In this document: piece after piece, positions 4,595-33,745 of the stretch
Layout of the letters: each line of letters starts with the position of its first letter
Position numbering within the stretch: position 1 is the first letter of the stretch
NCBI RefSeq assembly: GCF_913775425.1
Contig: NZ_CAJYIS010000031.1
Coordinates: 1-39,016, forward strand
Source of the DNA: an uncultured Enterococcus sp.
GTDB taxonomy: Bacteria; Bacillota; Bacilli; Lactobacillales; Enterococcaceae
DNA: 39,016 nt
Reading direction: 5' to 3'
Position numbers and translations under genes: made by a program
Notes under the pieces: generated by a model
The model's database searches: none
Told to the model about the DNA's origin: nothing
Seen by the model: the letters and a program-made list of their open reading frames with translations, nothing else

Positions 4595-5765
4595 ACAAGG
4601 TTTTTATGGCGACTTTGGAGGCCAATTCGTCCCAGAGACACTGATGTATGCGTTAAAAGAATTAGAACAAACCTATCGCACTTCGCAACAAGATCGGATC
4701 TTCCAAGAAGAACTAGCCTACTATTTAGCTCAATATGTCGGTCGTGAAAATCCTTTATACTATGCAAAACGCTTAACCGAAACACTAGGTGGGGCCAAGG
4801 TCTATTTAAAACGCGAAGATCTCAATCATACTGGAGCACACAAAATCAACAATGCTATCGGACAAGTCTTACTCGCAAAAAAAATGGGAAAACATAAAAT
4901 CGTAGCTGAGACAGGTGCTGGTCAGCATGGCGTAGCAACGGCAACTGCTGCAGCACTGTTTGGGATGGAATGTATTATCTTTATGGGTGAAGTCGATGTG
5001 AAACGTCAAGAACTAAATGTCTTTCGAATGGAACTCTTAGGTGCTAAAGTACAGCCGGTCACTTCTGGTAGTCATACGCTAAAAGATGCCGTCAATGAGG
5101 CCTTACGTTACTGGGTTGCTCACGTAGAAGACACGCATTATGTGTTAGGATCGGTTTTAGGTCCACATCCTTTTCCTGAAATCGTTCGTGATTATCAAAG
5201 TGTAATCGGCAAAGAAGCACGTGCGCAATTACTAGCTTCAGAATCTGTGCTGCCAGACATCGCGCTTGCTTGTATTGGTGGCGGCAGTAATGCTATGGGT
5301 TTATTCTATCCTTTTTTAAATGATCCTGTACGTTTGATCGGTGTCGAAGCAGCTGGAAAAGGACTAGATACCAAAGAGCACGCTGCTTCTTTGACTAAAG
5401 GTGAAATCGGAATCTTGCATGGCACAAAGATGCATGTACTACAAAATAGCGATGGTCAAATAGAAGAAGCCTTCTCGATCTCAGCTGGTCTCGACTATCC
5501 AGGGATCGGTCCTGAACATTCATTTTTACACACGACTGATCGAGTAGAATATACTTCTGTGACCGATGAAGAAGCACTTGAGGCATTTCATTTATTAGCA
5601 CAAACAGAAGGCATCATTCCTGCTTTAGAAAGTGCGCATGCTATCGCTCACGTGATGAAATTAGCTCCTACACTCGATCGTTCAAAACGTATCGTTGTTT
5701 GTTTATCTGGTCGCGGCGATAAAGATGTCCATCAAGTCAAACAATATATGGAGGAAATGCAATGA
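4575..5765 (+). CDS. trpB: Tryptophan synthase beta chain
   Basis: TrpB condenses indole with serine using pyridoxal phosphate. The 396-aa protein starts [17 protein letters not shown], typical of the family. It shows the PLP lysine in [13 protein letters not shown], the active-site glutamate in [11 protein letters not shown], and the phosphate loop GGGSNAMG. The frame is open from 4413, but GGAGG at 4565-4569 places the start at the ATG at 4575, inside the end of trpF. It is a TrpB1-type beta chain, as expected next to trpA, and its stop overlaps the trpA start. Confidence 0.96.
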
Positions 5766-6514
5766 AACTCGAGACAACTAAAAAACAATTCATTCCCTAT
5801 CTGATGGCTGGCGCCAATGGATTGGATCGCTTAGCCGATGAAATCAGACTCTTAGAAAAGCATGGTGCGACTGCTATCGAGCTTGGGATCGCTTTTTCTG
5901 ATCCAGTGGCTGACGGCCCGGTCATTGAACAAGCTGGGATCGAAGCGCGCAAAAAAGGCGTGACATTGCAAAAAGTCCTCGACTTTTTACAAACACACAC
6001 CTTTCATGTTCCGATTATTTTAATGGGATATGCCAATTCATTTTTTCATTACGGGATCGAGCCCCTCATAAAAGCTTTACAATCCACTCAAGTGGAAGCA
6101 TTGATCATCCCAGATCTGCCTTATGAGCACCGACAACTTGTAACCACTCACTTACCCAGTGATTTCACCTTGATCACGATGGTCTCTTTGACCAGTCCTC
6201 AATCACGAATCGCTACATTGACAAAACAAGCTACTGGATTTATTTATGCTGTAACCGTCAACGGCATCACCGGTAAGCAAAACGAAAGACAAGACTTAGC
6301 GCCTTACTTCAAACAGATCAAATCGACCACTGATTTACCTGTGTGTGCAGGATTTGGGATTACGAATGCTGCTGATGTTGCTTATTTTTTATCGATCTGC
6401 GATGGTATCGTGATCGGCTCAGCGATCGTGGAACAATTTGCTACACAAACTCTCGAGGCAGTTGATTTGTATCTGACTGAGCTACTCGCGCCCTTTCACG
6501 CGCTTACTGACTAA
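5762..6514 (+). CDS. trpA: Tryptophan synthase alpha chain
   Basis: TrpA cleaves indoleglycerol phosphate to indole and glyceraldehyde 3-phosphate and passes indole to TrpB. The 250-aa TIM barrel has both catalytic acids in context: the Glu of [11 protein letters not shown] and the Asp of [10 protein letters not shown]. The phosphate-binding loop [10 protein letters not shown] and IVIGSAIV follow. The ATGA overlap couples it to trpB. Its last 11 bases overlap the end of the opposite-strand lipoprotein gene, and no intrinsic terminator is visible after it. Confidence 0.95.
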
Positions 6515-7550
6515 TCTCTCCGGTCATAAACTTCGCTAACGGTTGTGCTAATTCATCTGAAATATTTTCGATGGAAATCGTTTGTGCTTGATCGATGATC
6601 TCATTAGCCATTTGTTTCCCTTTGACAGGATCATCCCAGTTTTTATCTTGAAAATGAGTCGGTACAGGATAATCGATCACTGTGCCGTCTTCGTTATTAT
6701 GATAAGTCACCATACCACCAGCTAATGGCGTAGCGGTGATATACGTTACGGATTTATTGACTACAACACCTGTGTTCCAGATCTGTAGTGAAGGTGTACT
6801 GTAAACATCAAGTGCATCAAGTGATTTCATTGAGCTTTCAACTTGTTCTTTCGTAGTCAGATTATAGTGTTTGATCCATACTTTTGCTGCAACTAACTTG
6901 CTATTAGGGATAACCTCTTTTGCTGGACTCACACTTGTAGTGGTCGTACTTATAGGCTCATTGGCGATTTTAGCGAAACCATTTTTCAACTCTTGATTTT
7001 TTGTTACAGTAAAATGCAAGCGATTGTCTGGTGTCGCTTGGTTTTGTTCGGTAATCAAGACGACTGGTTGTTGCTCTTTGAAAGCAAATAAATATAGATG
7101 TCCGCCGATCGTCCCGCCATCGACATCACAATAGACCGCTACCACATTATACTCTGCTTCACCTAATCCATTTGTTGACCAAGCAATCGTAGTCGTGATG
7201 TCATCGACTGCCATGGTATATTTATCAAAATCGGCTGGAAAATGTAAGCCCGCATAATTAGAACTGTTGGCTTCATCATAGGATGTGTACGATTGATTCA
7301 TCGTTTTTCCCCAACGTTGCATAAAACTTGCTAATTCTTCTTTTTTCTTATTATCCCATAACAATGCTTGTGTCGCTTGTGTAGTTGTGGTGGACGTCGC
7401 TTTTGTACTTGTTGCAGTCGTTTCACTCATTGAAGACGTCGTACTCGTTTGAGTTGCTTGTGTAGTCGACTTAGTTTTCGCTGTCGTTTGTGAACAAGCA
7501 CTTAACGCAACACAACAAGTCGCTAGCGCTAACCAAGGAAATATTTTCAA
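6504..7550 (-). CDS. Secreted lipoprotein with DUF4767-type domain
   Basis: The 348-aa protein has a lipoprotein signal peptide with lipobox LSAC (Cys19), then a Ser/Thr-rich spacer to about residue 62. A domain of roughly 140 residues follows (ELASFMQRWGKTMNQSYTSYDE...), resembling DUF4767 of lactobacilli and enterococci. The C-terminal half (about 215-348) is a separate domain I do not recognise by function. Translation probably starts at TTG (7548-7550), preceded by AAAAGGAGC. A TATACT -10 box is at 7582-7587. The protein should be lipid-anchored on the outer face of the membrane; its role is unknown. It is transcribed alone and converges on trpA with an 11-base overlap. Confidence 0.85.
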   Translation of the reverse strand: MKIFPWLALATCCVALSACSQTTAKTKSTTQATQTSTTSSMSETTATSTKATSTTTTQATQALLWDNKKKEELASFMQRWGKTMNQSYTSYDEANSSNYAGLHFPADFDKYTMAVDDITTTIAWSTNGLGEAEYNVVAVYCDVDGGTIGGHLYLFAFKEQQPVVLITEQNQATPDNRLHFTVTKNQELKNGFAKIANEPISTTTTSVSPAKEVIPNSKLVAAKVWIKHYNLTTKEQVESSMKSLDALDVYSTPSLQIWNTGVVVNKSVTYITATPLAGGMVTYHNNEDGTVIDYPVPTHFQDKNWDDPVKGKQMANEIIDQAQTISIENISDELAQPLAKFMTGEISQ

Positions 7551-7658: not shown

Positions 7659-8444
7659 TTAACGTAAAGGTTTATACTCAACATTCAAGCCGTTTTGGAC
7701 CCCTGGACGCTCATTGATGCGGTGTGCCCATTCTAATACATGTGTGTATTCATCCATATTTAAAAATTCATATGAACCAGCATATAATTTATCTAAGGCT
7801 AATCGACCATACCATGACCAAATCGCAATATCGGCAATCGTGTACTCATCGCCTGCAATATACGGACGTTTAGCTAACGTTTGATCTAATAGATCTAGTT
7901 GACGTTTTGTTTCCATTGTAAAACGATCGATCGCATACTCGATCTTTTCTGGTGCATAGTTGAAGAAATGACCGAAACCACCACCGACGTAAGGACCTGA
8001 ACCAATTTGCCAAAATAACCAGTTCATCACTTCTGTGCGTTTATGGATTTCTTTGGGTAAAAAATGTCCAAATTTTTCAGCTAGATAGACTAAGATCGAA
8101 CCAGATTCAAATAAATCTACTCGTGGTGTTTGACTTTGGTCAAACATCGCAGGAATCTTAGAGTTAGGATTGATGTCCACAAAATCTGAACCAAATTGAT
8201 CTCCTTCACCAATATTGATCAAATAAAGATCATAATCAGCTTCTGTTACACCTGCTTCTTTTAACTCTTCAAACATGATTGTTGCTTTGATTCCATTAGG
8301 TGTTCCTAATGAATAGAGTTGAAAAGGGGCATCGCCGACGGGTAAATGTTGCTCAAAACGACTACCTGCCGTTGGACGATTTCCCGTTTTATTTTCATTC
8401 TCATCTTCCCATTTCCAAACTTTGGGCACTTGATATTCTGACAT
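7659..8444 (-). CDS. YghU-type glutathione S-transferase / disulfide reductase
   Basis: The 261-aa protein matches the E. coli YghU family along its length: PKVWKWEDEN at the N-terminus, FQLYSLGTPNGIKATIMFEEL opening the thioredoxin-like domain, NPNSKIPAM (cis-Pro loop), LFESGSILVYLAEKFG, then the helical domain with MNWLFWQIG, GGGFGHFF, YAIDRFTMETKRQLD and AGDEYTIADIAIW. Family members bind two glutathiones and reduce disulfides rather than conjugating xenobiotics. It is shorter at the C-terminus than E. coli YghU, which extends about 25 residues further. The start follows AAAGGAGCGG. Low-GC Gram-positives often lack or import glutathione, so its presence suggests the host makes or takes up glutathione. 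Confidence 0.93.
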   Translation of the reverse strand: MSEYQVPKVWKWEDENENKTGNRPTAGSRFEQHLPVGDAPFQLYSLGTPNGIKATIMFEELKEAGVTEADYDLYLINIGEGDQFGSDFVDINPNSKIPAMFDQSQTPRVDLFESGSILVYLAEKFGHFLPKEIHKRTEVMNWLFWQIGSGPYVGGGFGHFFNYAPEKIEYAIDRFTMETKRQLDLLDQTLAKRPYIAGDEYTIADIAIWSWYGRLALDKLYAGSYEFLNMDEYTHVLEWAHRINERPGVQNGLNVEYKPLR

Positions 8445-8513
8445 ATGACCGCTCCTTTTATTTTGATACCATTATGATACTATGGAACCTAAAAATCCCC
8501 AAAAGATTGGCCT

Positions 8514-9839
8514 TTATTCTAAAGAATATACCGCTGCAGCTTGTCTGAATGTGGTCATTTGATGGTCCAATGTCGTTCGTAATTCTGATAAGCGATGCTC
8601 TATTAGTTGTTTATCTTTTACAACTTGCTTACCATTAACCCAAACTGAATGCACATTACCACTATTAGCAGAATAAACTAGCACTGCATAGGGATCATAG
8701 ATAGGAAACATATTGACTGATTGGGTTTCCACCAGTGTCAAGTCAGCTTGTTTGCCAATTTCAATCGACCCCACTTGATCTTCAATTCCTAATACTTTGG
8801 CACCAGATGATGTAGCGAGTGCTACGATTTCTTCAGCTTTAAAACAAGCACGATTTTTTTCTGTTGTTTTATGAATATTCGCAAACATGCGCATTTGTGT
8901 GAATAGATCTAGCGTATTGCCACTACTTGGACCATCAGTTCCCAGACCAACTGTCAGATTTTTAGTTAGCATCGTAGAAACCGGAGCGACCCCTTTAGCA
9001 GATTTTGTATTGGCTCCAATGCAATGCGCGATTGTAGTTGTTTGCGTATAGTTTGCCAAGCAATCCAAATCGTCCTTATTTGCAAAAATGGCATGAACTA
9101 AAATAAAGCGTTGCGTGAAAAAATCCAAGCTTTCTAAATAACGGATCGGTGTTTGTCCAAATTTCTCTTGAAAATAGTCCATTTCATAATCCATTTCAGC
9201 AACGTGCATCATCACAGGAACCTTATAGCGCTGAGCCAATTGTTGTACTTTTTTCAATCCCTCAGTCGTGTTTGTATTTGGTGCATGAGGTGCGATCATT
9301 GGGGTAATCAAAGGATGATCGTGCCATTTTTGAATCAATTGTTCTGCGTTTTTTAAAGCACGATCGACAGTTTCGGCATCACATACTGGCATATCAATAA
9401 TCGTTTCACCTACAAATCCACGCATCGACATTGCTTCAGCAGCTTTTGCGACCTCCTCTTCGAAATAATACATATCGGCAAACGTCGTCACACCTGCTAG
9501 TAACATTTCCGCCATAGCATACTTGGAAGAAGCATAGACTAATTCCGGTGTCATTTTTTGTTCTAAAGGAAATAAAAAACGTCGCAATCGGTCTGGCACA
9601 TCATCGCCCAAAGAACGAAAGGGAATCATACCACAATGTGTATGTGTATTGATCATTCCTGGCATCAAAATACCTTTTTGACCGTCAATCATGATTTCAG
9701 CTTCTGGAATAAAGGCATCTTTCATATTGCCGATTTGTTTGATTACAGATCCTTCAAGATACACATAACCATTTTGAAAAATAGTTTGTTGCGCATCCAT
9801 CGTCAAAATCGTACTATTATAAATCAATTGTGTCGTCAT
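8514..9839 (-). CDS. TrzA/AtzB/MtaD-type amidohydrolase (probable purine-related deaminase)
   Basis: The 441-aa metal-dependent hydrolase has the amidohydrolase barrel: PGMINTHTHCG (His66, His68), APHAPNT, MMHVAEMDYE (His212, Glu215), VHAIF (His249), and GLGTDGPSSGN (Asp302). The HxxE pair marks the clade of TrzA, AtzB, MtaD (methylthioadenosine/SAH deaminase) and 8-oxoguanine deaminases, which mostly remove an amino group from a heteroaromatic ring. Where MtaD-like enzymes carry an HNPxSN-type loop, this one has HCIGANTKSAKGVAPV, so the substrate is probably not the standard one. It is the last gene of the PurBox operon, overlaps the upstream deaminase gene by 23 bases, and has a strong GGGAGGG ribosome site. 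The exact substrate is unknown. Confidence 0.85.
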   Translation of the reverse strand: MTTQLIYNSTILTMDAQQTIFQNGYVYLEGSVIKQIGNMKDAFIPEAEIMIDGQKGILMPGMINTHTHCGMIPFRSLGDDVPDRLRRFLFPLEQKMTPELVYASSKYAMAEMLLAGVTTFADMYYFEEEVAKAAEAMSMRGFVGETIIDMPVCDAETVDRALKNAEQLIQKWHDHPLITPMIAPHAPNTNTTEGLKKVQQLAQRYKVPVMMHVAEMDYEMDYFQEKFGQTPIRYLESLDFFTQRFILVHAIFANKDDLDCLANYTQTTTIAHCIGANTKSAKGVAPVSTMLTKNLTVGLGTDGPSSGNTLDLFTQMRMFANIHKTTEKNRACFKAEEIVALATSSGAKVLGIEDQVGSIEIGKQADLTLVETQSVNMFPIYDPYAVLVYSANSGNVHSVWVNGKQVVKDKQLIEHRLSELRTTLDHQMTTFRQAAAVYSLE

Positions 9840-11559
9840 GATTTCCCTCCCTTTCCTCTTTCATAATCACGGATTGAAATCGTTGCGTTTTGGTTTCTAA
9901 TAAACCAAAATCCGTCACTTTATACGCTGGTGAAACAGGTAAAGAAAGCGTCGAAAACGACATGATCTCATTAGCATGATAATAGCCCAACTTATTCATT
10001 GCATGACGCACTTCTTGCAAGCGTTGACCTAAAATCGCGATTGGTTCTTGAGAAATAATTCCACCGATCGGCAACGGGCATTCTGCAATCACTTCCCCTG
10101 CTTTTACAACAACATATCCACCTTGTAATTCAAGCAAACGCTTTTGAGCACAGATCATCGATTCTGCATCATTTCCCATAATCAATAGATTATGATGATC
10201 ATGAGCCCAAGTCGTAGCGATACATCCTTTGTCGGTAAACGACTCTTTGATCAATTGTTTAGAAATACGATGTTGTTTCGTATACCGTTCTTGCACAAGT
10301 AAATAACACGTATTTAAAGGATCAATCTGTACTTTTTGATCTGCTACTGGAAATTCTTCAACAACAAGTGAAGTAAAGGTCCCAACTGCTTCTCTTTTGA
10401 TGATGCGGCAACGTACACTAGTCTGTTTAGTCGACGTTGACAATTGACAGTCAGCTTTAGTTAATGGTTCACACTCTAGACTATGATAAAAAGCTGCTGG
10501 GAATGTTTGCAGCACCTCATACATAGTCTCTTGATCTTTCCTATATGCGATCACACCTGATTTGATCACCATATCCACTTGCCAATTCTCTAGCGAATCG
10601 AGTAATACGATATCTGCTAATTGACCAGGTGCGATTCGTCCGCGATCCGTTAAGTGCATCCTTCTAGCAGGTGTATAAGTTGCTAAGTAAAGCGCATCTT
10701 CTATCGGCATACCTAGTTCGACCAGTTTTTGTACCAACAAATTCAAATGACCATGTTGCAATTGATCAGCCATCACATCATCCGTTACGATACATGCATG
10801 ATCGAATAAACGATGCTCCATCAAGCATTCAACGATTTCTTTAGTCAATGATTTTTCTTGTAATTCGATAAATAAGCCTGCTTCCATTTTTTCAATTAAA
10901 TGTTCAGCAAACTGATGGGTGTGATCAGAGGTAATCTTGCTACTTAAAAAGTCAGCTAACTCACGCTCGTATATTTTCGGGATATGTCCTTCGATCGGCA
11001 TCGTGTTATTAGTTGTTAAACAAAGTTCGATGATTTGCCGAATCAGCGAGTCTTTTTCATAAGCGATCCCTTTAAAATCCATCGCTTCTCCCAAACAAAT
11101 CATTTTTGGCCAAGTAAGCAACTCGGTTACTTCAGCTAATCCAATTTTACCACCAGTTGTCTCAAGCTCTGGTTTAGTCGATGGCACTGATGATGGGATT
11201 GCTTGAAAAATATCAAGCACTGTCGAACAGTCAAAAAAGTACCTTAGTCCTTCAATTCCAAAAACATTCGCCATTTCATGAGCGTCTGCTACAACGGTTG
11301 TGACTCCATAAGGCAGTACTGTTTGCGAAAAAATCTCTGGTGTCGTCATTGAACTTTCGATATGCATATGGATATCAATCAAGCCGGGAATCAAATATTG
11401 ATCCTCGGCTTCGATAGTTATTTTAGCACTTAGCGTATCATCTAATTCAGTGGCGACATAGTAGATGCTATCGTTTAAAAGATAGACTTGTTTTTTTTCA
11501 AATACTCGGCGAACGGTTTGATAAACCCACGCATCTTTGATCAACATATCTACTTGCAT
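9817..11559 (-). CDS. ade: Adenine deaminase family protein
   Basis: The 580-aa protein follows the adenine deaminase (Ade/AdeC) pattern throughout: LIPGLIDIHMHIESSM (metal ligands), PYGVTTVVADAHEMANVFG, GEAMDFKG, EGHIPKI, VTDDVMADQLQHGHL, ATYTPARRMHLTDRGRIAPG, and the C-terminal domain with WAHDHHNLLIMG and GGYVVVKAGEVIAECPLPIGG. Members convert adenine to hypoxanthine. The start is taken at 11559 because the upstream ATG at 11568 abuts the AAGGA ribosome site. One deviation: after EGHIPKI..., the sequence is SDHTHQ where relatives usually keep His-Glu (DHE or CHE), so activity or specificity may differ. It sits between a Pot-like binding protein and a second deaminase-like enzyme. Confidence 0.88.
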   Translation of the reverse strand: MQVDMLIKDAWVYQTVRRVFEKKQVYLLNDSIYYVATELDDTLSAKITIEAEDQYLIPGLIDIHMHIESSMTTPEIFSQTVLPYGVTTVVADAHEMANVFGIEGLRYFFDCSTVLDIFQAIPSSVPSTKPELETTGGKIGLAEVTELLTWPKMICLGEAMDFKGIAYEKDSLIRQIIELCLTTNNTMPIEGHIPKIYERELADFLSSKITSDHTHQFAEHLIEKMEAGLFIELQEKSLTKEIVECLMEHRLFDHACIVTDDVMADQLQHGHLNLLVQKLVELGMPIEDALYLATYTPARRMHLTDRGRIAPGQLADIVLLDSLENWQVDMVIKSGVIAYRKDQETMYEVLQTFPAAFYHSLECEPLTKADCQLSTSTKQTSVRCRIIKREAVGTFTSLVVEEFPVADQKVQIDPLNTCYLLVQERYTKQHRISKQLIKESFTDKGCIATTWAHDHHNLLIMGNDAESMICAQKRLLELQGGYVVVKAGEVIAECPLPIGGIISQEPIAILGQRLQEVRHAMNKLGYYHANEIMSFSTLSLPVSPAYKVTDFGLLETKTQRFQSVIMKEEREGNHDDTIDL

Positions 11560-24832: not shown

Positions 24833-26083
24833 TTATTTAATATTGGCTACATCGTAGGTATCATCCATTTTATTTAATATACGGTCGGTATTCAATTTTA
24901 GATCTTTAGAATTTTTAGTTTGATCTAATGCAAATTCAGATAGCATAGACGCAAGGTCGTATCCATTTGGTAATAAATGATCAATAAAATCGGTCACTTT
25001 TCCACCTTCAATATATGGACTGATTCCACTTAAGGAAGGTTCTGTTTGTGATACTCCTTTGATTGCTGAAAAAGCAAATTGATCATCACAATAACGAGCA
25101 AGCTGTTCCTTTTCTAAAAGAAAGTGGATAAATTCTTTTGCTTCTTTTTGATTTTTAGTTCCTTTTCCAATCATAAACATGACATCAACTCCACTTGTGA
25201 CTACATTTTTTGATGATTCATTACTAGCTGGAAGTGGAAAAATATTTATCTTTAACTCAGGATTTGCTTTCACAACTTCTGGGATCGCCCATGTTCCGTT
25301 GATTAACATTGCTGATTCTCCTTTAGCAAATGCTTGAGTACCATCTGCATAGCTTGTTCCCATTGCATCTTTTTGAGTATACGTCATTGCTTCAGCCATT
25401 TTTTCTAATACTTCCGGCCATTCATCTTGAAATTTCGTTTTGTTTTCTTTGCGATCACGTATCATTTCATCTGGAGATAATGTACCTGCGATTGGGTTGA
25501 ATAAAGCTTGTAAGGTCCAAGCGTCCTTAAAAGTACCTTCGATTGGTGTGATATTATTTTCTTTGAAAATTTGACAAACTTGAATAAATTCGTCCCAAGT
25601 TTGAGGGATTTCAAGATTATATCGCTTGAATAATTCTTCGTTATAAATGACACCAGATGCATTCGCTACATAAGGAACACCATAAAGTTTTGTCCGATCT
25701 TGTTGTAGATCTTGAGTCATTTTTTTATACGCTGGGAGAATATCTTGAACAAAGGATTCGTCGGATAGATCTTCTAACATTCCTACATTGGCAAGCTCAG
25801 TATATGTCACATCTCCACCGTACGCAATAATCGTTGGAATATCATCTTTAACTAAACGCGTACGTAAAACCGTTCCCGCATCTGCAGGTGTACTTAAGAC
25901 AATTTTAACATCTGGATGACTGGCTTCATATTCATCAACAAACTGCTTTAAAATAACTTGATTTTCTGATTTACTACTGAAAAATTCTACTTTTTTTTTC
26001 CCTTGATCTGCAGTAGAACTACAACTAGACAAAAAAATGGTAGCGATTACACTGAAAGCCAAAAAAATAATTTTTTTATTCAT
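24833..26083 (-). CDS. Sugar-binding lipoprotein of the ABC importer (MsmE-like)
   Basis: The 416-aa extracellular solute-binding protein (family 1) has a lipoprotein signal peptide with lipobox LSSC (Cys21). The mature part shows KVEFFSSKSENQVILKQFVD, IPTIIAYGG, LYGVPYVANASGVIYNEELF, GESAMLINGTWAIPEV and FIHFLLEKEQLARY, the usual sequence landmarks of carbohydrate-binding SBPs. It delivers an oligosaccharide, probably alpha-1,6-linked given the downstream glucosidase. It is the first gene after the operators. Confidence 0.91.
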   Translation of the reverse strand: MNKKIIFLAFSVIATIFLSSCSSTADQGKKKVEFFSSKSENQVILKQFVDEYEASHPDVKIVLSTPADAGTVLRTRLVKDDIPTIIAYGGDVTYTELANVGMLEDLSDESFVQDILPAYKKMTQDLQQDRTKLYGVPYVANASGVIYNEELFKRYNLEIPQTWDEFIQVCQIFKENNITPIEGTFKDAWTLQALFNPIAGTLSPDEMIRDRKENKTKFQDEWPEVLEKMAEAMTYTQKDAMGTSYADGTQAFAKGESAMLINGTWAIPEVVKANPELKINIFPLPASNESSKNVVTSGVDVMFMIGKGTKNQKEAKEFIHFLLEKEQLARYCDDQFAFSAIKGVSQTEPSLSGISPYIEGGKVTDFIDHLLPNGYDLASMLSEFALDQTKNSKDLKLNTDRILNKMDDTYDVANIK

Positions 26084-26099
26084 CCTTAATCCCTCTCCC

Positions 26100-26117
26100 A
26101 GGTGTTACGTCACACCT
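26100..26117. promoter_or_regulatory. Operator 1 of the msm-like operon
   Basis: AGGTGTTACGTCACACCT is an 18-base inverted repeat, palindromic at 16 of 18 positions, with the central CG typical of LacI-family operators. It lies between the promoter and the SBP start codon, and shares its half-site AGGTGT with operator 2. Confidence 0.82.
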
Positions 26118-26131
26118 AACTTTATTTTTAA

Positions 26132-26151
26132 AAGGTGTCACGTGACACCTT
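26132..26151. promoter_or_regulatory. Operator 2 of the msm-like operon
   Basis: AAGGTGTCACGTGACACCTT is a perfect 20-base palindrome with a central CG. It begins 8 bases downstream of the -10 box, across the transcription start. Centre-to-centre spacing to operator 1 is about 33 bp, near three helical turns, so the LacI protein could bind both cooperatively. Confidence 0.88.
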
Positions 26152-26159
26152 ACGGGAAA

Positions 26160-26188
26160 AGTATAGCATCTGACAAATAAATGGTCAA
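26160..26188 (-). promoter_or_regulatory. Promoter of the msm-like operon
   Basis: TTGACC (26183-26188) and TATACT (26160-26165) are separated by exactly 17 bp on the minus strand, a near-consensus sigma-A promoter. A strong promoter under two operators fits negative control by the LacI-type repressor. Confidence 0.85.
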
Positions 26189-26196
26189 GATGCTTT

Positions 26197-27219
26197 TTAA
26201 ATTTTCGTAACAGACTCTCCGATGATCAATTCAACTGGAATTGATACTGAAGACAAATTATTTTTACCTTCTTTAATTGCTTGCAATACTAATTGGATGG
26301 CCGCATTTGCTTTTGCTATTACATTTTGTTTTATAACTGTTAAGCGTGGTACTGCGTATTGCGAAAGTAAAGTTCCGTCAAAACTGATAATTGATAGTTC
26401 AGATGGGATGCCTATTTTTGCTTCATGAAATTTTGATATCGCTTGTACTGCTAATAAATCAGATGCAAAAAATAATGCTGTATAGGACTGGATTTTGGTA
26501 GCGATAAAATCATCTAAATATGTGTGATAGTCTTTTCTCATAGCTGGAACTGGTAGCCATTTAGCATCACACTGCCCACTAACAAAGGTATCGATAAATC
26601 CTTGTCCTCTAACTGCATCTAAACCTTCTATTATCTCTTCTTCACCCGCTTGTGCTAAAAATGCTACACGTTTGTGTCCGTTTTTCATCAAATATTTACC
26701 TGCTAAGCAACCACCATGATAATCATCGATTCCAACGTTCATCTGGGATAACTGTTTACCTTGTTGATACATATCTAAAAAGACAACAGGTACATTGAGT
26801 TTTTCACGCCAGACTTCTACTTCTTTTATATGCGATCCGGATATAATCAATCCTTCTAAATTCCACATTTCTACTAAACGTAGACCTTCTTCAACCGTAG
26901 AAATACGCCGAAACATCATAAAGTAACCGGCATCTGAAATACTACGTTCAACTGCTTGTAAAAATTCACCTTGGTAAGGGTTGTCATAAACATGATCTGT
27001 GACTGCAGTAGAATCTTGAATAATTACTCCGATGATTTTCGATCCATGTTTTGCCAGTAACCGCCCACCCATATGTGCAGTATAGTTAGTTTCTTTTAAT
27101 GCTTTGTTCACTTTATCTTGAGTCTCCTTAGATACTTTTCCTACTCGACCATGGATTACATTAGCAACAGTAGTGGGACTCACACCAGTCATCGCAGCAA
27201 TATCTTTAATTGTTGTCAT
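26197..27219 (-). CDS. LacI-family transcriptional repressor
   Basis: The 340-aa protein has an N-terminal LacI helix-turn-helix (TTIKDIAAMTGVSPTTVANVI, residues 2-22) and a periplasmic-binding-type effector domain (about 60-340: KIIGVIIQDSTAV, GLIISGS, VVFLDM, VGIDDYHGGCLAGKYL, ALFFASDLLAVQAI, LSIISFDGTLLS). It probably represses the downstream importer/glucosidase operon through the two CG-centred palindromes, released by the imported sugar or its product. It has its own promoter, and the operon promoter begins just after its stop. Confidence 0.93.
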   Translation of the reverse strand: MTTIKDIAAMTGVSPTTVANVIHGRVGKVSKETQDKVNKALKETNYTAHMGGRLLAKHGSKIIGVIIQDSTAVTDHVYDNPYQGEFLQAVERSISDAGYFMMFRRISTVEEGLRLVEMWNLEGLIISGSHIKEVEVWREKLNVPVVFLDMYQQGKQLSQMNVGIDDYHGGCLAGKYLMKNGHKRVAFLAQAGEEEIIEGLDAVRGQGFIDTFVSGQCDAKWLPVPAMRKDYHTYLDDFIATKIQSYTALFFASDLLAVQAISKFHEAKIGIPSELSIISFDGTLLSQYAVPRLTVIKQNVIAKANAAIQLVLQAIKEGKNNLSSVSIPVELIIGESVTKI

Positions 27220-27253
27220 CTCTTCACATCCCTTATATGTACTCTTATTTTTC

Positions 27254-27281
27254 AGTGTAACAGGATTTTAACTTTTTTCAA
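27254..27281 (-). promoter_or_regulatory. Promoter of the LacI-type gene
   Basis: TTGAAA (27276-27281) and TACACT (27254-27259) with a 16-bp spacer on the minus strand, about 35 bases before the start codon. No AGGTGT half-sites are seen here, so autoregulation is not indicated. Confidence 0.6.
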
Positions 27282-27289
27282 ATCCAAAG

Positions 27290-27319
27290 AGCCACAGCTA
27301 ATAATTTTTTGCTGTGGCT
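27290..27319 (-). terminator. Hairpin after the surface-protein operon
   Basis: AGCCACAGC (27290-27298) pairs with GCTGTGGCT (27311-27319) across an AT-rich loop just after the 801-aa gene. The following T run on the minus strand is weak (CTCTTTGGATTT), so termination efficiency is uncertain. Confidence 0.6.
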
Positions 27320-27327
27320 AGCTCGAA

Positions 27328-29733
27328 TTATTTAAATGTTGCAGTAAACGTCACATTACCAGTATATTCCTTGTTCTCATGTTTAAATGCATCTTTGTTT
27401 ACTTCCAAATGCAAGAGATAATTTGGTGTATCTTTTGACAAAGTAGTAAATGGTGTAGCATCTACCACCGGAGTTTTATCATCTTGTTGTAAAACATTGA
27501 CTGCAACACTGTCTTTTTCGTCATCTGCTAGTTTGAATTCGTGTTGGGTTGAAACATCGATTTTCGGTTCTGTAGTCGAATCATCTAAACTGTGGTATTT
27601 CAATTCTAACTTTCCTTTTGCTTTATCTTCTTGATTGTACATCGTAACGTTTGTCGGAACTTCTAAATAAGCACTTGGTTCAACCGGAGCTTTATCATAG
27701 ATGTAGGTAACAACTGTACCCTCTTTACTGAAAGTCCCAGTCATATTATCAGGCAGCTTATTTTTATCCAATTTATAACCTGGGATTTCTATTTGAAATT
27801 TTGGTCCACTCACATCATAAGGTTCTCCTTCATGCCCATCTTCTAAAATTTTATCTGAATGGATAGAATTTCCTTCTTCATCTCGATAACGAACAACAAC
27901 ATCATTAGGAATTACATTATAATAATAATAAACATCGATAGGATAATCATCAAATTTCCCTGATGCATTCGAAGGTAAATGATTTGCATCTAAATCGTAT
28001 CCATCAAATAATAATTTATACTCTGGCGTCCCCACATTATATGACTCTCCTGATTTACCATTCAATACTATCGGTTTATGCAGATCTTCTCCCTGATTAT
28101 CGATATAGTGAACGGTTACCATAGATTTTTTTTGAATTGGTTGAATTTGCACATCGTATCCAAAAGTGTAACTAGAATGACTACTTACATTTATCTTAGA
28201 ACTAAACATAGACATAGCATTAGGTGAAACTACATCTTCGGGTTTTAAATGTTCACCCAACAGTAAATTTTGAGAAGAAAGTGGCTCAACATCTCCATTA
28301 GCAGTTCCTGAATATGTTGAATCGTAATTTCCGTAGCTCATTATTCCGTCTTCTGAGATAGGATCTGCTAAAAACGACACTCTATATTGTTTTGATAAAG
28401 TTCGAAAATACCAACCTTTTCCCTTACCCAATGAAAATGAAGGCAATGTAGGAGAAAAAGTATTAGGACCCAAATAATTTGTACGCATAGGAATAGCATC
28501 ACCTAAAGTATAAGAACCCGAAAAGTTATTAAATTGATAGTTATTTTTCACAGAAACTATTCCATCTCTAAAATAATGGATTATTCTGGAAAAATTTATA
28601 TCGATTTTTCCATTATTGATATAAGCAGATTTTAACATTAGCGCTCTCTGCCCTGATGATAACGTTTTATAATATAGTCCTAATATAATATTAGGAGTTA
28701 TTTGCGAAGACCCATTCACCACACGTAAGTGAGCAGAACTCAATTGACAAGCACTATGAGTATCGTAAGGTCCATTTACACCGTCGTAGTATTCGTAATC
28801 TGCCACAGATTTTATCATACCAATATTCCACCCCGCTTCTTGCGGTTGTGTCGAGCTATCATTTATACTACCTACCTCATAAAATCGGAGCTTTGAAATA
28901 AAACTAGGGTAATAGTCCGAATTATATACATTAGCATCCCCAAAAGTATAAACTATATCCGTACCATCTGATAAAGCAGCTTTTCCTATTCCGTATTTAG
29001 ACAACATTGAATCTTCATTTAGTCCCATACCGAAATTCGCTTTCGGATCCAAATCCTTATTCTCATACAACGCTGTCCAGCCATTTGCTGGGTCAAAATC
29101 ATTATCGATCGTTGTCGGTTCAATAGCTTTGTTTTGTTTTTCTTGTATTTGCTCACTAGATAGCGTTGGTGTCGAAGATTCTTTAACGGCTTCACTACTT
29201 TGTTCACTACTACTCTCAGAATTTGGATTCGCTGTAGTGGATTCTTCATCTTTAGTCGTTTCACTAGAAGAAACTTTTGTCGAAGATTCTTGTTCTGTAG
29301 TCGTTTCCGATGACTTACTCGTTGTAGATTCTTCTTGACTATTTTTAGCTGTGGATCCGGTTGTGACTTGTTCCGTTAAACTAGAACTTGCTTCGATCGC
29401 TAATACAAACTCGGTCGGAAATAACACTGTGACCGCTAAAGCTAGGTATACGATTTTTTTCAAGTGTTTTCGTTTGGCATACAATACAAATAAAATCAAC
29501 GCGATTCCTAATACGACCCACCAATATTGGATTAACTCATTGGTATTTGGTAAAACCTTATGTGTTAGAGCCGGTCGTGAATGATAGTCCGGTGTCAAAG
29601 GCGAATCGGGTGTCGTGATTGATGTCTGATATGAAATTACGTCTTTTGTAAGCTCAGAAGCGTAGACTTTATTTTTTAAAACAGACAGACAAACACCGGT
29701 TGCTCCCATCGCATTTACGATTTGTTTTTTCAT
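27328..29733 (-). CDS. Fused LPxT-anchored protein and MucBP-containing surface adhesin
   Basis: The 801-aa product looks like two proteins joined. Residues 1-25 are a signal peptide-like leader. A short proline-rich segment leads to LPNTN (61-65), a hydrophobic helix (67-85) and KRKH, which is a complete sortase sorting signal. Without a stop, LKK and a second hydrophobic segment ending FVLA (94-112) follow, a typical signal peptide. Then come a Ser/Thr/Glu-rich stretch (about 113-205), a 300-residue domain I do not recognise, possibly lectin-like, two MucBP repeats (535-608, 609-681) and a C-terminal beta domain (682-801) ending YTGNVTFTATFK, similar to WxL-type ends but without the WxL motif. 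In related csc/WxL clusters a small LPxTG protein and the large surface protein are separate genes. AAGGGA precedes the ATG. It should be exported to the surface. Confidence 0.8.
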   Translation of the reverse strand: MKKQIVNAMGATGVCLSVLKNKVYASELTKDVISYQTSITTPDSPLTPDYHSRPALTHKVLPNTNELIQYWWVVLGIALILFVLYAKRKHLKKIVYLALAVTVLFPTEFVLAIEASSSLTEQVTTGSTAKNSQEESTTSKSSETTTEQESSTKVSSSETTKDEESTTANPNSESSSEQSSEAVKESSTPTLSSEQIQEKQNKAIEPTTIDNDFDPANGWTALYENKDLDPKANFGMGLNEDSMLSKYGIGKAALSDGTDIVYTFGDANVYNSDYYPSFISKLRFYEVGSINDSSTQPQEAGWNIGMIKSVADYEYYDGVNGPYDTHSACQLSSAHLRVVNGSSQITPNIILGLYYKTLSSGQRALMLKSAYINNGKIDINFSRIIHYFRDGIVSVKNNYQFNNFSGSYTLGDAIPMRTNYLGPNTFSPTLPSFSLGKGKGWYFRTLSKQYRVSFLADPISEDGIMSYGNYDSTYSGTANGDVEPLSSQNLLLGEHLKPEDVVSPNAMSMFSSKINVSSHSSYTFGYDVQIQPIQKKSMVTVHYIDNQGEDLHKPIVLNGKSGESYNVGTPEYKLLFDGYDLDANHLPSNASGKFDDYPIDVYYYYNVIPNDVVVRYRDEEGNSIHSDKILEDGHEGEPYDVSGPKFQIEIPGYKLDKNKLPDNMTGTFSKEGTVVTYIYDKAPVEPSAYLEVPTNVTMYNQEDKAKGKLELKYHSLDDSTTEPKIDVSTQHEFKLADDEKDSVAVNVLQQDDKTPVVDATPFTTLSKDTPNYLLHLEVNKDAFKHENKEYTGNVTFTATFK

Positions 29734-29734
29734 A

Positions 29735-30235
29735 CTATCCCTTCTCTTCTGGTTTTAATACCATTAATTTAAATGAAGTTTTATAATCATTAAGTTTTGC
29801 TGTTTTATCATGTGGCGGAAAAGGTTTGATCCGCAGAAAAACCATATGTTCACCAGCGGTTAGATCTTTAGGTAGTGAAACTTGAGTGATGGCTTCGCCC
29901 GGTTTAACTAAGTCACTATCTAGTAATTCATGCTCCTTATCTTCATGATCGATATAGACTTTAAATTTAAAATTCGCTTCATTAAACGATGGATTGCTTA
30001 AAGCGATATATAGCTCTTTGTCTCCTTCCATGATTTTTGTGTCTTTATAACCCGGAAAAGCGATTCGCGTATTTGTCCAATCCTGTGGCTTTTTGATTTT
30101 GGCATCGTATTTTTTTGCAGAAGAATCAAATACTAGACCATTGTCTTTATGTAATAATCGATACCCAATCAAACCGCTAATCAATAGCAATAATAAAACA
30201 ACAATGATTGTCATTCTTTTTTGTTTTGTATTCAT
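29735..30235 (-). CDS. Membrane-anchored extracellular protein of the surface cluster
   Basis: The 166-aa protein has an N-terminal basic segment (MNTKQKRM), one hydrophobic helix (about 9-27, TIIVVLLLLLISGLIGYRLL) and an extracellular domain of about 130 residues with beta-rich, immunoglobulin-like character (ELYIALSNPSFNEANFKFKV, GEAITQVSLPKDLTAGEHMVFLRI). No cleavage site or sortase motif is seen, so it probably stays anchored by its N-terminus. I do not recognise a function; its place between two surface-protein genes suggests a partner in display or assembly, similar in position to the accessory proteins of csc/WxL clusters. Confidence 0.72.
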   Translation of the reverse strand: MNTKQKRMTIIVVLLLLLISGLIGYRLLHKDNGLVFDSSAKKYDAKIKKPQDWTNTRIAFPGYKDTKIMEGDKELYIALSNPSFNEANFKFKVYIDHEDKEHELLDSDLVKPGEAITQVSLPKDLTAGEHMVFLRIKPFPPHDKTAKLNDYKTSFKLMVLKPEEKG

Positions 30236-30250
30236 ATCTATCCTCCAATT

Positions 30251-30277
30251 AAAAAAAGAGCAAACAGATCTGCTCTA
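30251..30277 (-). terminator. Internal terminator between the first and second surface genes
   Basis: Read on the minus strand, AGAGCA and TGCTCT pair across an 8-base loop, followed by a T run. It lies 22 bases after the first gene stop and before the second gene. No promoter is obvious between them, so it may lower the output of the downstream genes relative to the first. Confidence 0.75.
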
Positions 30278-30298
30278 TTTACTCTTTTTTCAACATGT

Positions 30299-30847
30299 TT
30301 ATTTTCCAGTAGCTGATGAAACAGTATACGTTACAGTATCTTGATAGACACCAGCACTTTTTGCTTGGCCAGTTAATTGATAGCGTAGTTTGATATCATT
30401 TGCTGTTTTACTTAATTGACCTAAATCATTTTCGCTAGTTCCCGTTAATGCAACTGCAGGTGTTTTTGATAGATCAATAAGTTTATAAGACACGGTATCT
30501 TTTTCATCTTTTACATTTTTCAATTGGAAACCGTTAGATGATTTTACAGAGATATTTGCTTTTTTATCTCCATCGTAATCTTCTTTACCATCTGGTTTGT
30601 ACATGTGAACTGAACGGTCATATTCTTTATGATCATCAGTAAATGTGATGTTCCCTGGAGTAGAAATCACATATTCTGGATTATCTGGATTATCTGGATC
30701 AGGAATATCATTGTTGCTACGATAAGTTACTGTAGTATCCGATTTTTGAGATGTTTCATCAGCAGATACTGTCGAAACAGTCGCTAAAACATTTCCTCCC
30801 ATCAATGCAAGCATAGATAATCCAACGATTTTTTTGTTAACAAACAT
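30299..30847 (-). CDS. Small secreted WxL-like surface protein
   Basis: The 182-aa protein has a signal peptide (MFVNKKIVGLSMLALMGGNV..., cleaved near VSA-DET at about residue 29). A linker with DPDNPDNPEY follows, then a beta-rich domain (VISTPGNITFTDD ... GVYQDTVTYTVSS) resembling the C-terminal domain of WxL-family proteins but without the double WxL motif. The frame extends to 30910, but the ATG at 30847 gives a proper signal peptide and follows GAGGAAG. It probably binds the cell wall or the large adhesin encoded downstream. Its own terminator suggests it is the most abundant product of the cluster. A TATACT -10 box lies at 30902-30907. Confidence 0.75.
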   Translation of the reverse strand: MFVNKKIVGLSMLALMGGNVLATVSTVSADETSQKSDTTVTYRSNNDIPDPDNPDNPEYVISTPGNITFTDDHKEYDRSVHMYKPDGKEDYDGDKKANISVKSSNGFQLKNVKDEKDTVSYKLIDLSKTPAVALTGTSENDLGQLSKTANDIKLRYQLTGQAKSAGVYQDTVTYTVSSATGK

Positions 30848-30901
30848 TGTAAACACTTCTCTTCCTCTAAGATTTTTGTTGGCCCTTGATCCAACGAGTA
30901 C

Positions 30902-30956
30902 AGTATACAAAGGAAAATCGATCTTTGGAAATAACGTTTCATGATACTACTATAAT
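30902..30956. promoter_or_regulatory. Divergent promoter region: surface cluster and LysR gene 1
   Basis: A minus-strand TATACT (30902-30907) serves the surface cluster and a plus-strand TATAAT (30951-30956) serves the LysR gene. Convincing -35 boxes are not seen for either, which fits activator-dependent transcription. The divergent layout makes the LysR protein the obvious candidate regulator. Confidence 0.5.
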
Positions 30957-31031
30957 GATCTCTTATGCATTTTTTCATTCAACTTCACTTACAATATGGA
31001 CAAGTTCTATTAAAAAAGAGAGGAATTTTTA

Positions 31032-31925
31032 ATGATGTTAGATTACCATTTCAAAACATTTTTAGTTGTTTGCGAATCAAAAAATTACACCGAAGCTGCT
31101 CAAAAACTTCAAATGACGCAGCCTGCAATCAGTCGTCAAATGGAGCAATTACAAGAACAATTACAACTAGAATTGATTACCATCAACAATAGAAAAATGA
31201 CTTTGACGAAGGAAGGTAAGTATCTTTATCGTCTGATCTCTAGTATGAAAAATATGGTGCATAAAAAACTATATTCTCTAACACATAACAGACCACAACT
31301 ATTGATTGGAGCAACTCCTTTTATTAGTCAATATCTGTTAGAACCGTTACTTACACAATTTCTTAGAGACAATAAAACTGTGTCGATTAATTTATATGTA
31401 GAAAATACGCCTTCTTTATTAAAAAAACTCCAGTTAGGTGCATTAGATTGTGCTTTGATTGAAGGTGATGTGGATCCATTAGTGTTTGATTCGATTTTTT
31501 TACGCAATGAACTATTACTCCCAATCTGCGCAACACAATCAAAACTGGCACACCACTCACGAAGTTTGGCTGATCTAGTAACTTCTGACTTGATTATAAG
31601 AGAACCTGAATCTACTATTTACCATGAAATCAAGCATTATTTTGCCAAACGTACGATTGCTCTAAGTGATTTTCATGCAGTTAATGTTGTTGAAGATTCT
31701 AATTTAATCAAACAACTTATTCGATCTGACTGGGGAATCGGTTTTTTGTATAAGCATGAAATCGAAAAAGAAGTGAGACAACAATCACTTTGTCCACTCT
31801 ATCTAGATCAAGCGCATATCGTGGTCCCACTTAATTTTGTATATCTTTCAAAAAAACAACATACACAAGCGATTCATACTCAATTTGATCTATCAAACTA
31901 TAAATTATCTAAAAAATTAGTTTAA
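31032..31925 (+). CDS. LysR-family transcriptional regulator 1
   Basis: The 297-aa protein has a LysR winged helix at residues 3-60 (FLVVCESKNYTEAAQKLQMTQ, AISRQMEQLQ) and an effector domain (about 90-290) with NLYVENTPSLLKKLQLGALDCALIEG and NVVEDSNLIKQLIRSDWGIGFL. It is divergent from the surface-protein cluster and is its likely regulator (inference from position). Start is at ATGATG; the second ATG (31035) would align its N-terminus (MLDY) with the two other LysR proteins nearby. AGAGAGGA precedes it. It shares the INLYVENT segment with LysR gene 3, so the two are close paralogs. Confidence 0.92.
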   Translation: MMLDYHFKTFLVVCESKNYTEAAQKLQMTQPAISRQMEQLQEQLQLELITINNRKMTLTKEGKYLYRLISSMKNMVHKKLYSLTHNRPQLLIGATPFISQYLLEPLLTQFLRDNKTVSINLYVENTPSLLKKLQLGALDCALIEGDVDPLVFDSIFLRNELLLPICATQSKLAHHSRSLADLVTSDLIIREPESTIYHEIKHYFAKRTIALSDFHAVNVVEDSNLIKQLIRSDWGIGFLYKHEIEKEVRQQSLCPLYLDQAHIVVPLNFVYLSKKQHTQAIHTQFDLSNYKLSKKLV

Positions 31926-31933
31926 GCTATACA

Positions 31934-31970
31934 AAAAGACTCGATCTTTAAATTAAGATCGAGTCTTTTT
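31934..31970. terminator. Bidirectional terminator between convergent LysR genes
   Basis: AAAAGACTCGATCTT pairs with AAGATCGAGTCTTTT across TAAATT, flanked by A and T runs. It follows LysR gene 1 and includes the last codons and stop of LysR gene 2, so one hairpin serves both. Confidence 0.9.
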
Positions 31971-32781
31971 TCGTTGAAAAATAAATTGGGATTGATGGTA
32001 GAGACGCTGAAAAATCAAAAATCAAAAAATCTTCAGCCTTAACTTGATACTCTCGCAAAGAAGATTCTTCTAAAAAACTAATTTTTCGATGATGCTCTAA
32101 AAGTTGTAAAATCAATCGTGTTTCTCCGACGATATCTATTTCTGAAAAATCAGAAAATGTTAATCCCTTTGTTCGTAAATAGGTACGTATTTGTTGATAA
32201 AGTGGTGAAGTCGGTTCACGTAAAAGTAAAGACTCAGTTTTCATATCCTGTATACGTTTAAATGATTCACGATAAAAACCTTTCGAACAAATCGCTATAA
32301 TCTTCTCTGTTTCGATTTCATAGGTAGTAAAATCTGGAAGATCAACAGGAAAATCCGTAATTAAAAAATCAAGTGGGATTTTTTTGATATCCTCTAAAAA
32401 TCGGCATGCTGTCGTTTGCTTGATAGTATAAATTTTATTTTTCAACTCTGTCTTCGTATCCAAGATTTCCATTGCCTTACTTGGTTGAATCGTATTTGAA
32501 ATCATGATTTGATAATTCCGTTCGTGTAACTTTTGTAACTCTTCATACCCCTTTTCTCTATAGGCCAACATCTCTTTGACTAACAAGTAAAGTTCTTTCC
32601 CATCGTTAGTTAGTGATAATTTATTTTTTCGATATAAAAATAATTTAAGTCCTGATTGCTCTTCAACATAAGCAATATGTTGACTAACAGTTGGTTGGGT
32701 CATATTTAATGCTTGCGCTGCTTTTGTAAAATTCAATAAATCAGCGACTTTAATGAATGTTTCGTAACGGTAATCAATCAT
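31948..32781 (-). CDS. LysR-family transcriptional regulator 2
   Basis: The 277-aa protein has the LysR helix-turn-helix (FIKVADLLNFTKAAQALNMTQ, TVSQHIAYVE) at residues 9-40 and a shorter, more diverged effector domain (LLLREPTSPLYQQIRTYLRT, ETRLILQLLEHHRKISFLEE). It is convergent with gene 1 and divergent from gene 3. Its last four codons lie within the shared terminator stem. No metabolic gene is adjacent, so its target is unclear; the other LysR genes or the surface cluster are the nearest candidates. Confidence 0.91.
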   Translation of the reverse strand: MIDYRYETFIKVADLLNFTKAAQALNMTQPTVSQHIAYVEEQSGLKLFLYRKNKLSLTNDGKELYLLVKEMLAYREKGYEELQKLHERNYQIMISNTIQPSKAMEILDTKTELKNKIYTIKQTTACRFLEDIKKIPLDFLITDFPVDLPDFTTYEIETEKIIAICSKGFYRESFKRIQDMKTESLLLREPTSPLYQQIRTYLRTKGLTFSDFSEIDIVGETRLILQLLEHHRKISFLEESSLREYQVKAEDFLIFDFSASLPSIPIYFSTKKDSILI

Positions 32782-32798
32782 CTTTTTCCTCCTAATAG

Positions 32799-32808
32799 CT
32801 ATCGATAG
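32799..32808. promoter_or_regulatory. Short palindrome in the LysR 2 / LysR 3 divergent promoter
   Basis: CTATCGATAG is a perfect 10-base palindrome 18 bases from the LysR 2 start codon and 62 bases from the LysR 3 start. A TATACT (32829-32834) may be the -10 of LysR 3. A regulator site is possible but short. Confidence 0.35.
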
Positions 32809-32869
32809 TGTTTTGCTATATTTTTCTTTATACTGTTTTTAAACTAGGCACTTCAAAGGAGCGAGTTAT

Positions 32870-33745
32870 ATGTTAGATTATCGATACCAAACTTTTATTG
32901 AATTGTGTCATACAAAAAATTATACTCGAACAGCTGAGCGACTTAATTTAACTCAGCCTGCGGTTAGTCAGCATATTTCCTATTTACAAGAACATCTGAA
33001 TACTCAACTAGTCTACTACGAGAACAAAACAGTCCATATCACCGAAGCTGGTTATTACTTATATGAGATCATTCAAAATATCAACAATTACACTGCTAAA
33101 AGCTTACAAGAATTCCAGTTGTTAAATAAGCAAATTTATATCACATTCGGTTCTACTCAAACACTTGCAGAATATATACTAGCTCCCCTTTTGAATGACT
33201 TTTTCGATTTATATCCTCATATTAAAATCAATCTTTACGTGGAAAATACGGCACATTTATTAGAAAAAATAAAGACTGGTGAACTTGACTGTGCATTTAT
33301 CGACGGGATATTTGACCAAGATATATTTTCCTCATTCCCTTTCAAACATGATGAGATCGTCTGCGTTTGTTCACCAAAACATCCTGCTGCATCTACACAG
33401 AAAACTTGGTCAGAATTGTTCACAGAATCGATTTTTTTCCGAGAACCGGGATCAGGAATTTTTAATGCCTTTCACCAACTGATCAGCCAGCAACAAATTA
33501 GCTTGGAAAGTTTTAAGGATCTTACAACGGTCGGAAATACGAATGTAATCAAGTCGCTCATCCAAGCAAACCAAGGAATCTCATTCGTCTATCGTTCTAC
33601 TGTGGAAAAAGAACTAGAAGAAAATACTCTCAGCCTTATTGAACTTCCAAATAACACACTCAAATTTACTTTCAATATGGTGTCTATCGGCGATCATCCA
33701 AAATTAGCTCCTGTGCGTGAGTACATCATAAAAAAAATGATGTGA
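32870..33745 (+). CDS. LysR-family transcriptional regulator 3
   Basis: The 291-aa protein begins MLDYRYQTFIELCHTKNYTR and has the LysR DNA-binding helix pair at 9-40 (RLNLTQPAVSQHISYLQEHL) and an effector domain with KINLYVENTAHLLEKIKTGE and REPGSGIFNAF, closely paralleling LysR 1. AAAGGAGCG precedes the ATG. It is divergent from LysR 2. The downstream GNAT gene is on the same strand but 186 bases away and probably separately transcribed. Confidence 0.92.
   Translation: MLDYRYQTFIELCHTKNYTRTAERLNLTQPAVSQHISYLQEHLNTQLVYYENKTVHITEAGYYLYEIIQNINNYTAKSLQEFQLLNKQIYITFGSTQTLAEYILAPLLNDFFDLYPHIKINLYVENTAHLLEKIKTGELDCAFIDGIFDQDIFSSFPFKHDEIVCVCSPKHPAASTQKTWSELFTESIFFREPGSGIFNAFHQLISQQQISLESFKDLTTVGNTNVIKSLIQANQGISFVYRSTVEKELEENTLSLIELPNNTLKFTFNMVSIGDHPKLAPVREYIIKKMM

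Follow-up and report, generated by a model that had tools for sequence, protein, structure and literature searches.

An 801-codon gene on the reverse strand of the window, by which we mean the whole stretch of DNA analysed (39,016 nucleotides from an uncultured Enterococcus sp.), is read here as a natural two-product precursor in which a CscD-like anchor peptide is fused to the neighbouring adhesin. We give this reading a probability of roughly 60%. It rests on an uninterrupted frame, the lack of a second ribosome site, the unfused relatives, the recurrence of the layout in other proteins and a cleavage-like site at the second helix.

As we infer the topology, the two cuts, the enzyme of each and the mode of attachment, the chain would be exported by its first signal peptide, would halt once the sorting-signal helix spans the membrane, leaving KRKH inside, and would then turn and leave the cell again through the second helix. 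Cleavage at LPNT|N by sortase would join residues 26-64 to peptidoglycan, whereas cleavage behind FVLA by signal peptidase I would release the MucBP adhesin, and the freed adhesin would be kept on the surface by non-covalent contacts. The gene has probably arisen from a small CscD-like wall-anchor gene with a large adhesin gene behind it, once overlapping and then brought into one frame, and the second start would have decayed after this joining. Normally, sortase and signal peptidase are viewed as enzymes of the two opposite protein termini. If both act mid-chain, this would be a simple polyprotein route that couples how much wall-anchored peptide is made to how much free adhesin.

The fused frame and its parts

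The gene is a single ORF (29733..27328, reverse strand, as are its parts and the cluster genes given below) that starts at ATG and has zero internal stops. The order of parts claimed for this chain by the initial annotation was confirmed: a signal peptide, 35 residues, the LPNTN sorting signal, KRKH, LKK and a second signal-peptide-like helix ending in FVLA follow each other without a stop. The range first assigned to them, 29401-29733, covers these parts except for the codon of the last A of FVLA, which reaches to 29398.

The first signal peptide (residues 1-25, 29659..29733), recognised from the sequence, is of moderate hydrophobicity with a possible cleavage at VYA|S. It is followed by a short CscD-like segment predicted to be exported (residues 26-60, 29554..29658), by the LPNTN sortase motif (residues 61-65, 29539..29553), by the sorting-signal helix, which hydropathy scans place at about residues 70-86 (29476..29526), and by the basic tail or loop KRKH (residues 87-90, 29464..29475). 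Codon 91 is a TTG (29461..29463) at the place where, from the relatives, the large gene would be expected to start. The second hydrophobic stretch, IVYLALAVTVLF (residues 94-105) together with PTEFVLA (residues 106-112), covers 29398..29454 and is a candidate internal signal peptide, called helix 2 below. FVLA itself occupies residues 109-112 (29409..29398), and the predicted cleavage would fall after A112 (or A115).

Downstream of FVLA, the protein consists of a Ser/Thr/Glu-rich linker (about residues 113-190, 29164..29397), a middle domain (about residues 191-537, 28123..29163), two MucBP domains (about residues 538-686, 27676..28122; PF06458, E 3.6e-28, two stretches) and a C-terminal domain (residues 685-801 plus stop, 27328..27681). 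MucBP was the only Pfam family above cut-off in the 801-aa protein, and the Gram_pos_anchor model did not report the LPNTN signal. The middle domain matched none of the ORFs taken from 11 cluster sources, and single-sequence structure prediction gave no usable fold for it (mean pLDDT 30). LPSTNE/FPSTNE signals are present in three other ORFs of the same genome, which also has six sortase-family matches, and N is the second commonest fifth motif residue in csc-like loci (15, G being first with 51, under a loose pattern). No Rfam match was found over 25500-32000.

Recurrence of the layout and the nature of helix 2

The same order of parts in one frame was found in the MucBP proteins of loci L068, L069, L204, L205, L210 and L221, and the layout is also present in genome G006, in a group of Listeria-type genomes, in others and in M26 (IgA1-type) proteases. 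We built a profile of the MucBP-type junction, A3, and searched it against 395 genomes of the order. Its best matches among those listed lie in frames of 450-1100 aa and others in frames of roughly 2000 aa; the matches in at least 146 of the 395 genomes include ordinary C-terminal anchors and are not a count of fusions. The loci that were read gave 58 fused ORFs, some fetched twice, and 36 remained after removal of near-duplicates, the window included. This set comes from fetched loci and is not a census; some of its members run off the end of a contig or stretch, L221 belongs to it although its first signal peptide lies in another frame, and L255 belongs to it without a cleavage-like site. 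The MucBP fusion gene of L221 (7200-7600, genome G041) appears to be frame-broken between the first signal peptide and the sorting signal. Among the long fused proteins, those of L261 and L262 are M26 IgA1-type proteases, with M26 and G5 found by Pfam, and other long ones carry HExxH by pattern. The case is thus less singular than the initial annotation had claimed, given the IgA1-protease precedent and the many relatives with the layout.

The junction is conserved in one group of these proteins. For six MucBP orthologues from six species of genus g8, presumably Enterococcus, dN/dS was 0.10-0.30 in the sorting-signal helix (computable in 6 of 7 pairs) and 0.19-0.25 in helix 2 (computable in 3 of 7 pairs, the rest having saturated dS). 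Purifying selection therefore acts across the junction of the g8 MucBP protein, which supports the layout and not the single-copy protein of the window itself.

The Listeria-type MucBP group matches the L. monocytogenes protein WP_014601749.1 (full-length tblastn), whose annotation says no more than MucBP domain-containing protein; the match, together with a GntR-like neighbour that is also similar, makes it probable that the Listeria-type genomes are Listeria. Their proteins have LLKTG, LLKAG or LIKTG in place of the motif, so that the proline is lost while both helices are kept. Motifs of the form LLKTGD, LLKAGD, LVKAGD or LIKTGD with both helices and an AxA-like end were seen in L233, L234, L235, L237-L243, L245-L248 and L256; this set is mostly Listeria-type, with L247 (G108) coming from the same family as the window. 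The proline-less motifs suggest that sortase recognition may have been lost in a lineage. Since both helices are kept there, the sortase step would not be universal, and with the sortase half possibly gone, the Listeria-type proteins would offer natural variants for testing the role of each half.

The same proteins bear on the best-surviving alternative, an uncleaved hairpin anchor in which there is no cut at helix 2, the two helices tether the adhesin and LPNTN is a relic or used occasionally. Proteins that hold both helices without the motif proline speak for such an anchor. Against it, the core of helix 2 in the window spans about 12 residues and is followed by P and an AxA-like end, the pattern of a cleaved signal peptide. 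An [AVSLITG]xA end closes helix 2 in 35 of the 36 non-redundant fused proteins; of 146 control helices, taken from multi-pass proteins, 91 have one too (Fisher p 1.1e-5). Strict AxA was seen in 17/36 against 18/146 (p 1.3e-5). Because the 36 proteins are related and the profile by which most were found itself covers helix 2, part of this enrichment is built in and the p values are overstated. The candidate site lies 48-56 residues past the motif T in all 35 proteins that have one, and 49 or 52 past T64 in the window, a spacing partly set by the method, as the scanned span starts at a fixed place in helix 2. In the window, the candidate site has A at -1 and V at -3 and is not a strict AxA. An IgA1 protease is also reported, in the available part of PMC9637739, to be cut downstream of its motif. 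Taken together, we hold the uncleaved hairpin to be unlikely.

Gene cluster, unfused relatives and translation starts

The putative two-product precursor is encoded by the third gene of a small cluster. The first gene (30299..30910) encodes a small secreted protein; its 203-aa ORF opens at TTG, and an ATG at codon 22 is the likelier start. The second (29735..30235) encodes a 166-aa membrane-anchored protein with matches in 34 of 105 family genomes (E<=0.01, own genome counted), and it was through these matches that related clusters were reached. In a small local set, phmmer gave the first-gene protein E values of 2e-31 to L114 and 3.9e-29 to L098. No WxL Pfam match was obtained for the three cluster proteins, the likeness of the C-terminal domains being judged by eye only, and no DUF916 match for the 166-aa protein or a 183-aa stretch of the first gene. 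Between the first and second genes (30257-30276), the reverse strand has a terminator-like hairpin with a T run; it may be there by chance, as the region holds three of this kind where 1.8 would be expected. At 31032-33745 stand three adjacent LysR-type-looking regulator genes, the middle one on the opposite strand, with Pfam run on the first only.

The unfused relatives were informative. The E. faecalis plasmid LR962603.1 (L114) has, in this order, genes for the secreted protein, the membrane protein, a 113-aa LPVTG protein and a 1306-aa MucBP protein; the last two genes are separate, in different frames, with an 8 bp overlap. In L124 (genome G214, from another family of the order), the gene of a 104-aa protein, with signal peptide and helix and without an LPxTG motif, overlaps a 1154-aa large gene by ATGA. 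In both, the large gene starts with ATG at a place comparable to TTG-91. A paralogous cluster in the window's own genome (L072) has a separate 84-aa LPSTN protein. The earlier statement that these are separate genes in related clusters thus holds for L114, L124 and L072 and fails for L098, L100 and L101, where no small LPxT gene was seen in a scan. Together with the proline loss of the Listeria-type proteins, the motif-less small protein of G214 indicates that the sortase half can go without the rest. A small ORF ending in a sorting-signal-like stretch was found in 69 of 100 csc-like loci, under a loose pattern that includes chance matches, one stretch being counted twice (L104 and L115, the same plasmid). 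The large proteins vary between related clusters: the middle and C-terminal domains of the window protein have no match to the large protein of L114, and only its C-terminal domain matches that of L124 (phmmer E 2.7e-6, small local set).

Two further observations were made in these loci. L099 (G105) has tandem large proteins on its reverse strand (4899-7538 and 7999-11502) with near-identical beginnings, compared over the first ~75 residues, and different ends. L108 (contig 3 of G088) has ORFs with the strings MCIRDR/MCIRDS and SYTHPDVYKRQ beside masked runs, which we take to be a sign of adapter contamination in assemblies.

The fused protein itself is known as one copy in a single genome. 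A motif scan of 147 loci (146 and the window) showed no other fusion inside a csc/elr-like cluster; of its 14 rows, three were the window and two copies of it (L078 and L123), two were MucBP loci (L068 and L069), and the remaining nine were judged by eye to be either chance matches or multi-pass membrane proteins and were discarded. No relative was found in one scan each of genome contigs and viral contigs, no orthologue in two other genomes of the genus, and none by residues 212-578 in the other 104 family genomes. This last query gave MucBP matches and weak matches in ORFs of ~705-718 aa in G059, G063, G065, G068 and G108, which were dropped as penicillin-binding-protein-like by eye. A query with the 83-residue junction alone matched 6 of the 394 other genomes of the order (E<=0.001), and among the matches listed none reached past position 66, short of FVLA. 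A 1016-aa protein of L098 with LPFTE near its start, at first read as a second fusion, was dropped as no helix follows. A literature search did not find the layout described for csc proteins in the text available, and a search for an LPXTG sorting signal combined with an internal signal peptide found no paper.

A sequencing or assembly error, or a fresh mutation, could have joined two normal genes: the draft assembly has 90 contigs, there is a run of seven A at the junction, the fusion is known from one genome, and two related clusters have separate genes. A single-base change, however, would not also delete the ribosome site, and the frame retains KRKH, as expected of a sorting tail, followed by a second signal peptide. 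The ribosome site of both unfused relatives is absent here and the start is TTG, and we therefore regard an assembly error or a freshly lost stop as unlikely. The initial annotation had held that a stop at the junction, both in close relatives and in this strain, would speak against the fusion; relatives do have stops, which is half of that pattern, and a second strain was not found.

This absence of a ribosome site before TTG-91, already noted in the initial annotation, was borne out by anti-Shine-Dalgarno pairing, the best value there being 0 kcal/mol. The ATG of the fused ORF reached -5.4 kcal/mol, the gene upstream -9.3, and the large genes of L114 and L124 -7.1 and -10.3. Among 20 other ORFs of the window, 18 were at -3.8 kcal/mol or better and two near 0, so that a missing site is unusual and not unheard of. 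An adhesin translated separately from TTG-91 or another internal start, the fused frame being incidental, is the least probable explanation: TTG-AAA-AAA would open a good signal peptide, the large genes of L114 and L124 begin with ATG at a comparable place, two of the 20 ORFs also do without a site, and an in-frame TTG at 29499 pairs at -4.2 kcal/mol, weakly and from inside helix 1, but TTG-91 itself stands at 0 kcal/mol with no preceding stop for re-initiation, and the start-type codons of the six g8 orthologues are scattered across the junction stretch, with ATG absent there in two of six. Slippage on the A7 run as a source of two products was not supported, as such a run lies in the region of only 4 of the 36 fused genes, the window included.

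Comparison with IgA1 proteases and csc/elr operons

The closest described layout is that of the IgA1 proteases. ZmpB, ZmpC and ZmpD have an N-terminal LPXTG, according to the accessible portion of PMC7939560. For IgA1 proteases with an N-terminal LPXTG, the accessible portion of PMC9637739, with reference to Bender and Weiser 2006, reports a cut 56 residues past the motif and ascribes it to sortase A; that of PMC7695701 describes covalent linkage of the mature enzymes by sortase A and gives the mature form as residues 154-1963. Bender and Weiser 2006 is cited also by PMC7695701 and, in its available text, by PMC2225412. Like the window protein, the M26 IgA1 proteases have a signal peptide, a short segment, an LPXTG signal, a basic loop, a helix 2 with an AxA-like end and a large extracellular part, all in one frame. 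They carry M26 and G5, whereas Pfam found neither in the window protein, nor YSIRK. Against the reported distance of 56 residues, the window's candidate site lies at 49 or 52 after T64. Signal peptidase as the enzyme of the second cut is suggested by the sequence of the site, and the cited papers, as far as available, do not state it. Two products from one chain, as first proposed, is the best-supported reading, and it is only partly supported because these papers ascribe the IgA1-protease cut to sortase; both cuts in the window protein are putative.

The MucBP module proteins (WP_014601749.1 and the 501-503-aa proteins of L068, L069, L204 and L205) have the window's order, with MucBP behind helix 2. 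They differ in an ..LVYQK-like motif in the first segment and GYxYVGY after helix 2, both absent from the window, and in standing outside csc-like clusters, although in L204 and L205 such a cluster is ~5 kb away. In hhalign, the window N-terminus aligned with A3, the MucBP version and the only one compared, at a probability of 44% and E 2.4e-4, over the sorting signal, the loop and the start of helix 2 only. This limited alignment favours an independent origin of the window's module, and the fused N-terminus is best read as probably converging on that of the IgA1 proteases. On this comparison, the layout seems to reach beyond the IgA1 proteases, for which it was described, and to be able to arise anew from neighbouring genes. 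We advance more tentatively, as possible and still rather doubtful, that Gram-positive bacteria have a general cassette, a sorting signal directly before an internal signal peptide, which has evolved repeatedly and yields a wall-linked peptide and a free surface protein at a fixed 1:1; the window would be an independent origin of it by fusion of overlapping genes.

On the side of the WxL operons, residues 1-90 of the window protein resemble a CscD unit. In the available text of PMC1534035 and PMC4522977, the small LPxTG protein is a separate gene in csc (CscD) and in elr (ElrB), and the former gives CscD a length of 90-140 aa and a spacing of 40-60 residues from its signal peptide to LPxTG. 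The window unit has a 35-residue segment and is fused. As in the csc and elr operons, it adjoins a large MucBP protein, a small secreted protein and a membrane protein; in contrast to them, the window cluster gave no DUF916 or WxL Pfam match. L114 shares the window's gene order, with 50% identity of the membrane protein over residues 35-161, whereas its last two genes are separate and overlapping, and MucBP is all that the large proteins have in common, as far as compared. The fusion to a MucBP adhesin in a csc-like cluster is a variant of the layout already described for IgA1 proteases.
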